From NCBI RefSeq assembly GCF_034259325.1, contig NZ_JAXIVS010000002.1, positions 620,001-684,000 on the forward strand: a DNA stretch of 64,000 bases, given 5' to 3'. The translations under genes and the position numbers were made by a program. Positions 31,047 through 47,844 of this stretch are shown here, piece after piece; the first letter of the stretch is position 1; each line of letters begins with the position of its first letter. Origin of the DNA: Hyalangium ruber. GTDB taxonomy: Bacteria; Myxococcota; Myxococcia; Myxococcales; Myxococcaceae. The notes under the pieces were generated by a model, which did no database searches, was not told the origin of the DNA, and saw nothing but the letters and a program-made list of their open reading frames with translations.

Positions 31047-33095
31047 ATGGGTTTGAAGAAGTTCGCTCCCGCGGCGCTGCTGCTCTGGGGTGTCACCCCG
31101 GTCATGGCGCACGCACAGGTGGTGCCCGGCATCGAGCAGCCGGCGGTGGACCGCGAGTTGTGGATCAGCATTGGCGCCGAGGCGCTGGAGCCCGTGCAGT
31201 CGGAGTTCCGCGCCGCGGGCTTCGAGCCACCCGTCGGGGTGCAGGTGCAGAACGACCTGGCGATGATGAAGGTGCATGAGTCGCAGCTGCACACCATCTC
31301 CCGGGTGATGCACGACAAGTACAACCGGTGCGCCGGCTTCCTGGCGCATGAGTCCGAGCAGGAGGCACGGGCAGCGCTGACGAAGGCGGGCTCGCCGACG
31401 CCGCCGATCCACACACAGGTGACCTACAGCATCGACAACGCGGGCACAGTGAACGCGCTGATGAGTGAGATGGCGGAGCCCAACATCCGGGCCACCATCG
31501 GCACGCTGTCGAGCTACACCACGCGCTACTACACCTCGGCGACGGGCCTGGAGTCGGCCAACTGGATCAAGACGACGTGGCAGAACCTGGCGGCGGGGCG
31601 CTCGGACGTGAGCGTCACCACCTTCGCCCATAGCGGCTACAACCAGCCCTCGGTCATCCTCACCATCACCGGCACCAGCCTGCCCAACGAGGTGGTGGTG
31701 CTGGGCGGGCACCTGGACTCGACCAACACCTCGGGTGGCGCGGCGCCGGGGGCGGATGATGATGCCTCGGGCATCGCCTCGCTCACGGAGATCATCCGCT
31801 CGGCGATGGTGAAGGGGTACCGGCCGGCACGCACGGTGAAGTTCATGGGCTACGCGGCCGAGGAGGTGGGCCTGCGCGGCTCCCAGGCCATCGCCCAGTG
31901 GCACAAGACCAACCAGGTGAACGTGGTGGGCGTGCTGCAGCTGGACATGACGAACTACCGCGGCTCGAGCGTGGACATCGGCCTGGTGACCGACAACACG
32001 AACGCGGCGCAGAATTCGTTCCTCACCAGCGTCATCGACACGTACCAGATCGCCACGTGGGCGACCACCGTGTGCGGCTATGGGTGCTCGGACCATGCCT
32101 CGTGGCACGCGCAGGGCTTCCCGGCGTCGATGCCGTTCGAGGCGCTGATGAACCAGCACAACTCGGCGATCCACAGCACGGGGGACACGCTGGCGCGGAG
32201 CGCGGGTTCGGCGACGCACGCGGTGAAGTTCTCCAAGCTGGGCGCGGCGTTCATGGCGGAGCTGGCCAAGGGCACGGTGAGCGACGACACGGGAGACACG
32301 ACGCCTCCCATGGCGGCCATTACCGCGCCGGCGCCGGGGGCCACGGTAAGCGGCACGACGACGGCGATGGCCAACGCGGCGGACAACGTGGGCGTGAGCC
32401 GGGTGGACTTCCTGGTGGACGGAGCGCTGAAGGGCACGGACAACACGTCGCCCTATACGTTCGCGTGGGACACGACGAGCGTGGGCAACGGCAGCCACGT
32501 GCTGGTGGTGAAGGCGTATGACGCCTCGGGCAACGTGGGCACGAGCGCGGGCGTCACGGTGAACGTGAGCAACACGAGCACCACGGCGACGTATGACCCG
32601 ACGCTGAAGGCGCCCAAGTGCGCCACGGTGAACAGCGTGTGTGACTCGGGCCTGTCGCTGCTCAACGGGCGCGCGAACCTGGGCCCCGAGGTGAACAAGC
32701 CGAACACGATTGGCGGGACGTGCGCGGATGGAACCCAGGGCGTGTACCACTCGGACGAGTCGAACGACCGCATCCGCGTGCTGACGACGGATGGGACGCC
32801 GTTCGCGGCGGGGAAGACGGTTCGCATCGAGGCCACGGTGTGGGCCTACTCCACCTACACCTCGGACAAGCTGGACCTGTACTACGCGGCGAACGCGAAC
32901 GCGCCGAGCTGGGTGTTCCTGGGCACGTACACCCCGACGAAGGCGGGCTCGCAGGTGTTGTCGGCGACGTACGCGCTGCCGGCGGGCGGGCTGCAGGCGG
33001 TGCGCGCCAACTTCCGCTACGGCGGGACGGCGGGCACCTGCGCGGCCGGCTCGTACACGGACCACGACGATCTGATCTTCGCCGTGACGCCGTAG
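31047..33095 (+). CDS. Secreted M28 zinc aminopeptidase with Ig-like and C-terminal accessory domains
   Basis: The 682-residue protein has a signal peptide (cleavage after MAHA, near 23), a propeptide-like region to about residue 125, and an M28 peptidase domain close to Vibrio/Aeromonas leucyl aminopeptidases. Candidate zinc ligands and the general base are His222 (GGHLDS), Asp238 (GADDDASG), Glu272/273 (AAEEVGL), Asp300 (LQLDMT) and the late His in AIHSTGD. An Ig-like module (about 430-515, PAPGATVSGTTTAMANAADN) and a beta-sandwich C-terminal domain (about 520-682, with CDSGLSLLNG and TYALPAG) follow; the latter type recurs in secreted myxobacterial hydrolases. The enzyme should trim N-terminal residues from extracellular peptides during predation. 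A strong ribosome site (GGAGGAG) precedes the start. It lies just after the SusC/SusD genes. Confidence 0.9.
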   Translation: MGLKKFAPAALLLWGVTPVMAHAQVVPGIEQPAVDRELWISIGAEALEPVQSEFRAAGFEPPVGVQVQNDLAMMKVHESQLHTISRVMHDKYNRCAGFLAHESEQEARAALTKAGSPTPPIHTQVTYSIDNAGTVNALMSEMAEPNIRATIGTLSSYTTRYYTSATGLESANWIKTTWQNLAAGRSDVSVTTFAHSGYNQPSVILTITGTSLPNEVVVLGGHLDSTNTSGGAAPGADDDASGIASLTEIIRSAMVKGYRPARTVKFMGYAAEEVGLRGSQAIAQWHKTNQVNVVGVLQLDMTNYRGSSVDIGLVTDNTNAAQNSFLTSVIDTYQIATWATTVCGYGCSDHASWHAQGFPASMPFEALMNQHNSAIHSTGDTLARSAGSATHAVKFSKLGAAFMAELAKGTVSDDTGDTTPPMAAITAPAPGATVSGTTTAMANAADNVGVSRVDFLVDGALKGTDNTSPYTFAWDTTSVGNGSHVLVVKAYDASGNVGTSAGVTVNVSNTSTTATYDPTLKAPKCATVNSVCDSGLSLLNGRANLGPEVNKPNTIGGTCADGTQGVYHSDESNDRIRVLTTDGTPFAAGKTVRIEATVWAYSTYTSDKLDLYYAANANAPSWVFLGTYTPTKAGSQVLSATYALPAGGLQAVRANFRYGGTAGTCAAGSYTDHDDLIFAVTP

Positions 33096-39046: not shown

Positions 39047-39211
39047 GTTTTGGATGTCTCCCTCCCGCCTCCAGCATGACGCATCAGCGGGCTGCCTGTC
39101 AGGGTGGACTTCCACGGCGACCGGTCCTGTCACACGCCATGGTGGTGGACTCAGCCCTTCTCGAATGCACCAGCGCTGCCTTCCGGCGCGCCCCCATCCG
39201 AGGAGATCCCC

Positions 39212-39412
39212 ATGAAGAAGCACACCCCCCGCAAGTCCTTCATCCAGTACGAGCTGCCCGAGAAGACCCTGAAGCAGGTTCAGGGTGGCCAGGGAATGAC
39301 GACAATGGCCCTGGGAGAAGAGGGCGGCGGTCCCATCACGACGAAGGCCATCGGCGAGGAGAGCGGCGGCCCCATCACGACGCTGGCGGTGGGCGAAGAG
39401 ACCGGCTGCTGA
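39212..39412 (+). CDS. Putative graspetide (plesiocin-type omega-ester peptide) precursor, three core repeats
   Basis: This 66-codon gene has a strong ribosome site (GAGGAGA, about five bases before the ATG). The N-terminal leader is charged and ends ELPEKTLKQVQGGQG, i.e. an L....L..V.GG pattern typical of double-glycine leaders. The core, from Thr30, consists of three near-identical units: TTMALGEE, TTKAIGEE and TTLAVGEE, joined by GGGPI and SGGPI linkers, with Cys66 last. TTxxxxEE is the core motif of group 2 graspetides such as plesiocin, also from a myxobacterium, where an ATP-grasp ligase forms two Thr-Glu side-chain esters per repeat and makes hairpin bicycles. Three units would give six esters. 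No RimK/PsnB-like ligase gene is in the window, so maturation would rely on an enzyme elsewhere. The motif match and repeats are seen; product and modification are inferred. Confidence 0.75.
   Translation: MKKHTPRKSFIQYELPEKTLKQVQGGQGMTTMALGEEGGGPITTKAIGEESGGPITTLAVGEETGC
39299..39409 (+). repeat. Three in-frame core repeats of the precursor peptide
   Basis: Units at 39299-39337 and 39338-39376 are each 13 codons, and the last at 39377-39409 is 11 codons. Each begins with two Thr codons and has two Glu codons at positions 7 and 8. Codon choice varies between units (for example GAAGAG, GAGGAG, GAAGAG), so the repeats are kept at the protein level rather than being a recent DNA duplication. 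Confidence 0.8.
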
Positions 39413-39416
39413 GCCC

Positions 39417-41330
39417 TCAGCGCGCGCCGTCGATGAAGGGGCGAGACTGGACGATCCAAACCTTCTCGCCCTCCAGCACCCACTCGATGTCCAACGGCCC
39501 GCTGTCGGGGAAGACCTTGCGCAGCTTCGCCGCCGCCAGCGACAAATCCCGGGCGCGCGCCTCCGCCAACACGGGGGCCGCGCTCCCGGTGGGCACCTCC
39601 TTGATGCCGCCCTGCGCGTCGAACACCAGCATCGTGGCGTCGTCCGAGCGCGACAGCACCCGGGCGCCCGGGTAGCGGATGTCGTAGAGCACCTGCTCGG
39701 GGACGGTGACGCCGCTCACCACGCTCAGCCCCAACCCGCGCTTGGCGTTGATGGTGAAGGTGTGTTTGTCGCGCGGGTCATAGAGGTTCTTCGTCACCAG
39801 CACGCCCGCGGCGGTGGCGTTGATTCCCACCTGCACCAGCACCGCCGAGAACACCGAGCGCGGCTCGATGCCGAAGCGCTTGCGCTCCTCCACGGCGTGG
39901 AAGTTCCACAGCGAGGCCCAGACCTGCCGGATGGCCGCGCTCAGCGCCTCGCGTCCCACCACGTTGGGCACCGTGTCGTACAGGCCCGCGCCGTTGAAGC
40001 CCTTCAGGTCCTCGGCGTTGGTGGACGAGCGCACGAAGACGCCCTTGCCTCCCAGTTGCTCGCGCACCTGGGTCTCCACCTGGTTCAGGAACGCCTCATC
40101 CAGAGGCGCCCCGGCGATGCGCGCGCGGAACTTCTCCAGCCGCTCCTTGCGAAACGCTGCCTCCTGCTGAAAGCGAGGCTCGGCCAGCATCGCCTCCAGC
40201 TCCGTGTGCAGGCCGTGGCGCTGGAGGTGCTCGACGTAGAAGGCGAACGGGATGCCGAACCCGTCCGGGACATGAACTCCCGGGAGCTTGGCGTGAATGA
40301 TTTCTCCCAGGTTGGCCGCCTTGGTGCCGTAGAGGCGGGTGTCCCGGGCGCGCATGCGCTTGAGCGGACGGAGCTCGTGGGCCGTCAGGTCCGCGGCCGG
40401 CACCAGGACGGTGCGAGCCGCCTCGCGGGCCTGCTTCCAGGTGGCCAGCTCCTTCTCGGTGGCCGGGCGCAGCACGTGGGTGTTGCCCCGCACATCCAAC
40501 CGGACCACCTGACCGTCCAGCGCGGCGTAGCGCGTGGCGGCGTCCTTGAGCGTGGCGTTGGGGATGCCCCAGGCCCGGGCGCGCAGGTTCACGTGGGACA
40601 GCGGCGTGGAGAACTGGGTGGAGAGCACGCCCGCCACGGGCGGCAGGTCCGGATAGGACTCCTGGAGGATGACGATGTCCTCGGAGTCGAACAGCAGCGA
40701 CTCGTACGGGGTCCCCGGAGGGACGACGCGCAGGCGGCCCGTGGCCGCACCCGTGTTGAAGGGCCGGTAGTCGGCCTGCTTGTAGAGCGTGTCGCTGGTG
40801 ACGGTGGGAATGTCCTTCAGCTCGGCGAGCAGCTCCTCCTGCCGGGTGGACTCGGGCCGGAAGGCGATGTCCTGGACGAAGAACGTCTTGAGCAGTGTGT
40901 CCCGCGCGCGGCGCACGTCGGCGGGGCGGATCCGGTCGCTCTCCCAGAAGCTGAACGTCCAGCGCTTCGCGGCGCGGTGGTGGGTGACGTAACCGAGGAT
41001 GTAGTGCGGCTTGTCCTCCCGGTAGTTGCGGAAGTACTCGGTCCGCTCCTCGTCCGTCATCGGCCGCCGGAAGAGGACCTGGATGACGAAGTCCTGGTGC
41101 AGCCGGTAGAGGTTGACGTCGAAGTAGTAGATGCCCCCCGACTTCAGATCGATGAGGAACTTGCCGACGTCGTCGGTCTCGACTGGCAGGGCGTAGGCGG
41201 AGAAGGTGGCCGCGTCCCGAATCTCCGAGACATAGGGAGCATGGCGGCGAGGAGCGGCCTCTGCCTGGAACAGCGCGACGAAGAGAACCAGCAGCCACGC
41301 GGAGGACAACGCCCGTGCGAAGTGTTGCAT
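39417..41330 (-). CDS. Secreted PEP/pyruvate-binding (PPDK-N, ATP-grasp) protein with upstream swivel domain
   Basis: The 637-residue protein has a signal peptide (cleavage near AEA, residue 26). After an unknown N-terminal domain (30-230) comes a phosphohistidine-swivel-like segment, FSTPLSHVNLRARAWGIPNAT, with His246, and then a C-terminal PEP/pyruvate-binding ATP-grasp domain (about 345-637: LYGTKAANLGEI, VPDGFGIPFAFY, FVRSSTNAEDLKGFNGAGLYDT, and the closing LDIEWVLEGEKVWIVQSRPF). In PEP synthase and PPDK the order is ATP-grasp then swivel; here the swivel comes first, as in glucan water dikinases. An ATP-using fold with a signal peptide is odd, since the periplasm lacks ATP. The gene is convergent with the peptide precursor, with four bases between stops. 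It is not of the RimK type expected for graspetide ligases. Confidence 0.8.
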   Translation of the reverse strand: MQHFARALSSAWLLVLFVALFQAEAAPRRHAPYVSEIRDAATFSAYALPVETDDVGKFLIDLKSGGIYYFDVNLYRLHQDFVIQVLFRRPMTDEERTEYFRNYREDKPHYILGYVTHHRAAKRWTFSFWESDRIRPADVRRARDTLLKTFFVQDIAFRPESTRQEELLAELKDIPTVTSDTLYKQADYRPFNTGAATGRLRVVPPGTPYESLLFDSEDIVILQESYPDLPPVAGVLSTQFSTPLSHVNLRARAWGIPNATLKDAATRYAALDGQVVRLDVRGNTHVLRPATEKELATWKQAREAARTVLVPAADLTAHELRPLKRMRARDTRLYGTKAANLGEIIHAKLPGVHVPDGFGIPFAFYVEHLQRHGLHTELEAMLAEPRFQQEAAFRKERLEKFRARIAGAPLDEAFLNQVETQVREQLGGKGVFVRSSTNAEDLKGFNGAGLYDTVPNVVGREALSAAIRQVWASLWNFHAVEERKRFGIEPRSVFSAVLVQVGINATAAGVLVTKNLYDPRDKHTFTINAKRGLGLSVVSGVTVPEQVLYDIRYPGARVLSRSDDATMLVFDAQGGIKEVPTGSAAPVLAEARARDLSLAAAKLRKVFPDSGPLDIEWVLEGEKVWIVQSRPFIDGAR

Positions 41331-45911: not shown

Positions 45912-46823
45912 ATGCCCTCCCGCTGGACATTCCTTGCACCGCATCTGCTGGCGGCGGTCGCACTGCTGCTCTGCGGAGGATGCAAGGAACGCACTGCCGA
46001 AGTTCCCGTCCCCCGCACACCGGCAGATGCCGGGAGTCGTACTCCCGAGAGGTGGGAGCCCCTCTCCTTCGACAACCGCTTGCTCGCATTGGGTGGAGAG
46101 GTGGACTCCTCCAATCGCTACTCAGCCGCTGTCATGATCGCGGTGAGGTTGGAGGGGGCGGAGACCATGAGATGCGGCGGGGTCGCCATCGGCCGTCGTC
46201 TCGTCCTCACGGCAGGGCACTGTGTCTGTGCTCGACGCAGGTCCCAACTCTCCGGCACCATCGATACGTCGGCATGCGCGACGACCGCCACCGTGGAAAC
46301 AGTCCTCTACAAGCCCACCACGCTCGGCAAGGAGCCCGGCGCCTCGCGCAGGGACGTCTACCAGGGAAGGGTCCGTCCCCATCCCCAGCTCCAGGTTCTC
46401 CTCGATAAGGACGGGCGCGTGGTCTCGAGCCAGGCGGATCTCGCGCTCGTTCTTCTGAACGAAGAACTCGGAGAAGGGGTTCGAGCCGTCTCTCTCGCGG
46501 AGACAGACGTCCGGGTAGGCGAGCCCATCTCCATCGTGGGCTACGGCTACGACGAAGTCTCCAACGTCCATGGAGCAGACCGCCGCATCAGCCGGAACAA
46601 GGCTCTGGCATCCACGGGCGAAATCGTCCGGATCGAACAGCCCGGGCAGCACCGCTATCGGGGAGAAAGTGGCGGCCCCTGTCTCCGCGAAGACGCCCGG
46701 GAATCGGAGCTCGTCGGGGTGTCGAGTCGATACCTGGGAGAAGGCTCAACCTTCACGAGCATCCATGGCTACCGCGGCTGGCTGCGTGACGAACTCCAGC
46801 GCTCGGACACCGTGAAAGACTGA
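45912..46823 (+). CDS. Trypsin-like serine protease lipoprotein (S1), first of a tandem pair
   Basis: The 303-residue protein has a lipoprotein signal ending in LCGGC (Cys24). The S1 catalytic triad is complete: His103 in LTAGHCVC, Asp in SQADLALVLL, and Ser253 in GESGGPC. Extra cysteines (MRCGGV, CVCARR, SACATTATV) could form the usual S1 disulfides. The chain lacks the residue context that defines trypsin specificity in an obvious way, so specificity is not assigned. It should sit on a membrane facing the periplasm or the cell surface. The next gene is a paralogue in the same direction, 13 bases downstream, with the same CVC after the catalytic His. Confidence 0.88.
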   Translation: MPSRWTFLAPHLLAAVALLLCGGCKERTAEVPVPRTPADAGSRTPERWEPLSFDNRLLALGGEVDSSNRYSAAVMIAVRLEGAETMRCGGVAIGRRLVLTAGHCVCARRRSQLSGTIDTSACATTATVETVLYKPTTLGKEPGASRRDVYQGRVRPHPQLQVLLDKDGRVVSSQADLALVLLNEELGEGVRAVSLAETDVRVGEPISIVGYGYDEVSNVHGADRRISRNKALASTGEIVRIEQPGQHRYRGESGGPCLREDARESELVGVSSRYLGEGSTFTSIHGYRGWLRDELQRSDTVKD

Positions 46824-46836
46824 CCGGAGTCAACCC

Positions 46837-47844
46837 ATGCCTCACTCCAGAGCCCAGCTGACGCGCCTCCTCCTGATGCTGCTCGTGTGTCACGGCTGCT
46901 CGTCGAGCGCTCCCGCACTCGGCCCTGAGTTCGAGCACCTCCCACTCGGCCACGAGCTGCCCGTTGTCTCCGAGAGCAAGATCGACAGCCTGAATCGCTA
47001 CCGCTCCACCGTCAAAGTCACCACCACCTTCCTGCATCCAGACACCGGGGCGCTGGTCAAGACGTGTAGCGGCGTCCTCATCCACCATCGCGTGGTCCTG
47101 ACCGCCGGGCACTGTGTCTGTGCCGAGCGCGAACCGGTACCGCCGGAGCCCCAGGGCATCACCCTCATCGACTCCAGATCGAGCTGCGCGAAGGTCGCGA
47201 CCGTTCGACTGCTTACCTACCGACCCATGGAGGTAGAAGCCGAGGAGGTCCTGAGCGTGCCCTCGGATGAGAGCGAGCCCTACCCCGGAGTGGTCCACCC
47301 CAACGAGGACATCCAGATCATCTACAAAGAGGTCGAGACCGACTCCGGTAGAAGGATCAAAGACACGGTAGCCAGCCACGCGGATCTCGCGGTCATCTTC
47401 CTGAAACAGTCGCTTGAGGGCGTGGTCGAACCCGTGCGCCTCGCCAAGGAGCCCGCGCGGAGGAACGAGCAGGTGGTCCTGGTCGGCTATGGCTCCGAGA
47501 CCCTCGTGGGAGGTGCCATCGGCAAGGAGCGTCGCTACGGCGAGAACGACGTCCTGGCCATCAAGAGCGATGGGTCCACGTTCCAGGTCGGCAGGCAGCT
47601 CAACATCCAGGACACCTATGAGGGCGAGAAGCCCGACGTCATCCGCAAGAAAGGCTCCTACGCCACCGCCGGAGATAGCGGCGGGCCCTGCTTCCGGAAG
47701 AGAGGCGCGGGCTTCGAACTCGTCGGGATCGCCAAGTCCACCTTCGCTCCTCCCATCGTGCTGTCGGCATACACGAGCACGCCCCGGTATCTGGGCTGGC
47801 TACGGAAGAAGATCGGCGAGTCCCAAGCCGCCCAAACCGATTAG
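46837..47844 (+). CDS. Trypsin-like serine protease lipoprotein (S1), second of a tandem pair
   Basis: The 335-residue protein is a paralogue of the one before it. It has a lipoprotein signal ending CHGC (Cys21), His92 in LTAGHCVCAE, Asp in SHADLAVIFL and Ser281 in GDSGGPC. It is about 30 residues longer, chiefly in a loop after the His (PPEPQGITLIDSRSSC) and an acidic insertion (EVLSVPSDESEPYPGV). Both paralogues share the SLNRYRS/SSNRYSA opening of the protease domain. Tandem duplication followed by divergence is the likely origin. Its stop overlaps that of the convergent trehalase gene. Confidence 0.88.
   Translation: MPHSRAQLTRLLLMLLVCHGCSSSAPALGPEFEHLPLGHELPVVSESKIDSLNRYRSTVKVTTTFLHPDTGALVKTCSGVLIHHRVVLTAGHCVCAEREPVPPEPQGITLIDSRSSCAKVATVRLLTYRPMEVEAEEVLSVPSDESEPYPGVVHPNEDIQIIYKEVETDSGRRIKDTVASHADLAVIFLKQSLEGVVEPVRLAKEPARRNEQVVLVGYGSETLVGGAIGKERRYGENDVLAIKSDGSTFQVGRQLNIQDTYEGEKPDVIRKKGSYATAGDSGGPCFRKRGAGFELVGIAKSTFAPPIVLSAYTSTPRYLGWLRKKIGESQAAQTD

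Follow-up and report, generated by a model that had tools for sequence, protein, structure and literature searches.

How is a peptide with a graspetide core matured when its precursor gene stands apart from any ATP-grasp ligase? The gene that raises this question lies on the forward strand of the window, a 64,000-nt stretch of the Hyalangium ruber genome (G000:C2:620001-684000; 10.77 Mb, 43 contigs), at positions 39212..39412, and encodes a peptide of 66 aa, MKKHTPRKSFIQYELPEKTLKQVQGG/QGMTTMALGEEGGGPITTKAIGEESGGPITTLAVGEETGC, an assignment based on the open reading frame and on six homologues. A ribosome-binding site, GAGGAG (39200..39205, +), stands upstream of the ATG at 39212. The leader of 26 aa (39212..39289, +) contains the motif FIQYELP (39239..39259, +), a proposed ligase recognition site that also occurs in ligase-adjacent precursors, and it ends in L(-12)-x4-L(-7)-x2-V(-4)-x-G(-2)-G(-1), a double-glycine signature. 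The core holds three units on the same strand, TTMALGEE (39299..39322), TTKAIGEE (39338..39361) and TTLAVGEE (39377..39400), the last followed by TGC and the stop codon. The 66-codon frame, the ribosome site and the three units are exactly as a sequence-only reading had given them, and none of the curated Pfam and NCBIfam models matches the peptide. The C-terminal Cys to which that reading drew attention is present here, but its position is not conserved among the homologues and it is best regarded as a species detail; the cores of all seven unlinked copies (window 39212-39412 and L093-L098) contain one Cys or more, at positions that are not homologous.

The same reading had found nothing for maturation in the 64 kb. 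For ligases this holds, as searches with MvdD and RimK models detected no RimK-type or MvdD-type ATP-grasp ligase inside the window. As worded, however, the claim that there is no protease gene does not, because the window encodes an M28 peptidase (31047-33095) and, 6.5 kb downstream of the orphan gene, two trypsin-like proteases in tandem (45912-46823 and 46837-47844), neither kind being the leader-processing C39 type. Homologues of the trypsin-like proteases, 47-50% identical, lie near the orphan in one relative (G042), inverted; searches at the remaining orphan sites detected none, and we therefore set these enzymes aside as targets or processors of the peptide.

The orphan gene is real and not a chance reading frame. 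A search of 96 same-family genomes of myxobacteria recovered six full-length homologues (67-70 aa, 57-69% identity, E 1e-13 or better), an Archangium violaceum protein 62% identical to the orphan was retrieved from 85,000 prokaryotic genomes, and an HMM of the seven unlinked copies, referred to here as trans precursors, found no additional full-length member with a comparable score in 195 genomes of the phylum. Pairwise dN/dS among the seven ranges from 0.21 to 0.65, below 1 for every pair, and T-T-x-x-x-G-E-E is kept in 21/21 core units. The codons at ring positions have changed silently (ACC/ACG/ACA/ACT, GAG/GAA) while the remaining core positions vary: 12/12 ring positions are invariant columns versus 5/27 of the other ungapped core columns (p 2e-6). 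The Thr and Glu positions therefore do not vary freely among relatives, and the orphan is under selection for the graspetide pattern. A relic, a decoy or an unmodified regulatory peptide that is a substrate no more would fit the isolation of the gene, which has neither a transporter nor an immunity or ligase gene as its neighbour; seven intact copies within this range of dN/dS, the retention of all units through synonymous changes and the conservation of the leader and of an upstream element described below make this quite improbable.

A ligase is present elsewhere in the genome. When the MvdD and RimK models were run over all contigs, the nearest real candidate to the orphan was C2:567973, corresponding to the gene at G000:C2:567613-568566 (317 aa). 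This gene shares a contig with the orphan and lies upstream of it, at a distance of 90,646 nt; as it falls 51 kb beyond the window, the sequence-only reading could not have seen it. With a PsnB-like ligase encoded this close by, the suggestion that the gene might be a stand-alone precursor is unsupported. The best solved relative of the ligase is 7drm (E 4e-42), 76 bits ahead of the next graspetide synthetase; we take structures 7drm-7drp, whose PDB entry name is ATP-grasp domain-containing protein, to be PsnB, the plesiocin synthetase. The alignment with 7drm spans the K-P-x-x-G-G, D-x-R and E-L-N motifs, all of which are intact, and K167, D204, R206, E282 and N284 are invariant among ten relatives. 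Genes neighbouring the ligase at the loci examined encode RuvC/RuvA, a DksA-type protein, a phosphoesterase and a LysR regulator, with no transporter and no peptidase at these loci.

Divergent from the ligase, on the opposite strand and 117 nt away, is a second precursor gene (C2:567277-567495), MTRHHKGASFIDYELPDWIGGK...VTTLAVGEEGGGGSTPGIVTTMALGEEGNSQG, with a SFIDYELP leader and two TTxxxGEE units. It has S-F-I-x-Y-E-L-P in common with the orphan, and an HMM built from the trans precursors alone matches it over its full length (E 7e-7). This common F-I-x-Y-E-L-P is the strongest link between the orphan and the ligase. Across 18 genomes, its codon pattern gave 12 exact matches, which correspond to the seven trans precursors and five ligase-adjacent precursors and to nothing else; the two places matched in H. 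ruber are the orphan and the ligase-adjacent gene, those of the 18 genomes without a close ligase had 0 matches, and so did a control with the motif reversed. F-I-x-Y-E-L-P is also similar to a leader motif, 'Phhx(1,2)h', reported for about half of graspetide precursors (PMC8939145).

The distribution of the two genes points the same way. The ligase is present in 7/7 orphan genomes (E 1e-168 or better, 80-100% identity), so that the graspetide reading withstood a search for it in this genome and in relatives bearing the gene. Of all 96 genomes, 24 have the ligase, with a cut-off of about E 1e-117. This co-occurrence, which covers three genera of one family, gives a Fisher p of 3e-5, a descriptive value that ignores kinship. 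Within Archangium (genus g3), four species have both genes and two have neither; in the two species without the orphan, the flanking gene is intact and DNA homology ends at the orphan border. The ligase is never beside the orphan: 91 kb (G000), 153 kb (G040), 0.67 Mb (G007) and 5.1 Mb (G003) separate them, and they are on separate contigs in G004, G005 and G042. Adjacency of precursor and ligase, which is usual in group 2 and not chemically defining, is thus absent in 7/7 orphan genomes; in the remaining ligase genomes, precursor matches adjoin the ligase. Together, the presence of the ligase in every orphan genome and the common leader motif strongly support maturation in trans at the level of genomics. 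Identification of the gene as a group 2 (plesiocin-type) precursor is supported by the core motif, its conservation, the leader and the occurrence of a PsnB-like ligase in this genome.

H. ruber encodes other ATP-grasp ligases that could modify the peptide, namely a microviridin pair (C12:235518/236513) and MvdD-like proteins at C11:177647, C11:163810 and C1:1108810. These outscore the PsnB-like ligase against the MvdD model, and the microviridin leader likewise ends in GG. However, the C12 pair is accompanied by a precursor of its own, whose PFFARLLEAQE leader and TLKYPSDSDE core do not resemble FIQYELP and TTxxxxEE, the remaining MvdD-like candidates have no TTxxxxEE precursor nearby, and the leader motif tracks the PsnB-like ligase across the 18 genomes, so that modification by one of these enzymes is very improbable. 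The C12 locus is itself a microviridin-type locus (235518-237469, L028) with two MvdD/MvdC-like ligases and a precursor. The C11 ligase (177647-178600, L030) has a C39 peptidase ABC transporter (C11:188494) at a distance of about 10 kb, with no clear precursor recognised.

Ligase-adjacent precursors take several forms. In genera g1, g3 and g8 they have one or two units, no Gly-Gly before the core and no Cys in the listed cores, and those of g19 genomes have 11-15 units. The Archangium copies read P-F-I-K-F in the leader. At four Archangium ligase loci (L100, L101, L103, L104) the precursor adjoins ruvC/ruvA and contains just one TTxxxxEE unit; taken by itself, such a locus could yield no product with more than one hairpin. 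In G041 (C370, L108), a second ligase of the PsnB-like type (66% identical) was observed beside a long repeat precursor with a SFIKYESP leader, in which units of the form (R/Q)T-x-A-x-PEE, such as MRTMAYPEEGG, replace TTxxxGEE; this may be a ring-pattern variant with one Thr per unit. In an uncultured bacterium, a 396-aa precursor-like protein (L004, 8275-10441) carries many scattered TTxxxGEE-type units and has a divergent ATP-grasp gene alongside. An Aquabacterium precursor (L006) was considered as a second orphan and rejected, as a ligase-like frame lies just downstream.

The orphan occupies one syntenic site in G000, G042 and G040 and another in the Archangium genomes; in the stretches compared, no conserved functional neighbours were found, and the g1/g8 and Archangium sites have no genes in common. 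An amidohydrolase gene adjoins the orphan in G042 and G040 yet is present in G041 without the orphan, and we rejected it as a partner. The end of the orphan is 5 nt from that of a minus-strand gene (39417-41330) for a protein with a PPDK_N domain, a PEP-synthase type ATP-binding domain of ATP-grasp-like fold, which raises the question of whether this neighbour is the modifying enzyme. The two genes are convergent and not co-transcribed, the syntenic sites in G042 and G040 have the amidohydrolase gene directly after the orphan and lack the PPDK_N gene, the Archangium copies adjoin unrelated genes, and PPDK_N enzymes, to our knowledge, phosphorylate and are not graspetide synthetases. With no conserved linkage, we rejected the neighbour as the ligase; such a role is barely conceivable.

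Despite the two unrelated chromosomal sites, TCACA(A/C)G occurs 62-115 nt before the start codon in 7/7 trans precursors (window and L093-L098), in H. ruber as GTCACACG (39129..39136, +), a possible promoter element. A common 8-mer with at most one mismatch was found upstream of the seven and in 0/100 dinucleotide shuffles of the same sequences, a result inflated by common ancestry, so that a role as promoter or operator is a suggestion only. As for a GTCACA element at the ligase promoter, there were just two inexactly placed matches by eye, and we make no claim for it.

The conservation of the leader bears on how the peptide would be released. L15, L20, V23, G25 and G26, the positions of the double-glycine signature (L(-12), L(-7), V/I(-4), G(-2) and G/A(-1) before the core), are invariant in 7/7 trans precursors, and the signature is absent from the ligase-adjacent ones. 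Since the latter differ after the leader motif and have no Gly-Gly before the core, the trans and cis peptides may be processed differently. No C39 peptidase or transporter gene was found on the contig of the orphan; every orphan genome has unlinked C39 genes, as have all other genomes tested, so these transporters do not discriminate and we did not retain them as a diagnostic partner. C39 peptidase domains of H. ruber are encoded at C5:542583, C5:303021 and C11:188494. Such a distribution is expected, because the leader peptidase is not typically encoded in the graspetide locus (PMC8939145); an NHLM-type transporter is reported to be frequent in group 2 loci (PMC13097080).

A less favoured model is a split system in g1, g3 and g8, in which the ligase-adjacent precursor, having shrunk to one or two units (one in Archangium), came to do something else, for instance to regulate or activate the ligase, to act as its decoy or to supply one of the two peptides of a joint product. 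The peptide actually exported would then derive from the trans precursor, which is unlinked, carries the double-glycine signal and Cys, and has a conserved promoter element of its own; we consider this model rather unlikely. Our preferred reading, to which we assign a probability of roughly 0.85, is that the orphan encodes a group 2 graspetide precursor that is cyclised in trans by the PsnB-like ligase and whose leader has an added double-glycine signal. The trans peptide would be made from its own locus, and the one PsnB-like ATP-grasp ligase that this genome encodes would recognise the F-I-x-Y-E-L-P leader of both precursors and close two Thr-to-Glu side-chain esters per TTxxxGEE unit. By analogy, six esters in a three-hairpin topology are predicted, that is, three hairpin-like bicycles with a mass change of -108.06 Da. 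The calculated monoisotopic mass would fall from 6902.46 to 6794.40 Da for the whole peptide with its initiator Met, and from 3849.80 to 3741.73 Da for the core after Gly-Gly. Cleavage after Gly-Gly and export would then, we infer, fall to an ABC transporter with a C39 peptidase domain whose gene lies elsewhere, and the released 40-aa core would be expected to inhibit serine proteases, by analogy with plesiocin.

This appears to be a known kind of system in a new genomic arrangement and not a new class. Like plesiocin (group 2; PsnA2/PsnB of Plesiocystis pacifica), the orphan system has TTxxxxEE repeats, Gly-rich linkers and a single ligase related to PsnB (7drm), and a hairpin-type multi-bicyclic product may be expected by analogy. 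In contrast to plesiocin, the orphan is unlinked from its ligase (the distance is 91 kb to 5.1 Mb in genomes with the two genes on the same contig), has a canonical double-glycine signal in the leader, exactly three units and at least one Cys per trans core, and the ligase locus retains a separate short precursor. Multi-unit group 2 precursors adjacent to ligases in G053, G068, G073 and G067 resemble it in their ligase (77-78% identical), F-I-x-Y-E leader and TTxxxGEE units and differ in having 13-15 units in one precursor beside the ligase and no double-glycine leader; no trans copy was found in these four genomes. The features of microviridin (group 1; PFFARFL-type leader, TxKYPSDxD/E core, two ligases) are absent from the orphan and present at C12. 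A parallel in organisation is that of the prochlorosins, in which one synthetase, ProcM, serves ProcA precursors scattered over the genome via a common leader. Prochlorosins differ in their lanthionine chemistry, enzyme family and many hypervariable cores, whereas the orphan is one trans copy with a conserved core.

The practical interest of the orphan is that neighbourhood-based mining cannot see unlinked precursors. This case, conserved in seven genomes, in which an unlinked precursor is tied to a ligase via a common leader motif, suggests that some substrates of such ligases are missed when mining is confined to adjacent DNA, and it provides a search recipe, namely taking the leader motif linked to a ligase and scanning the whole genome with it. 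It would also make it possible to ask, in a natural setting, if a single PsnB-like enzyme accepts two substrates that are processed in different ways.
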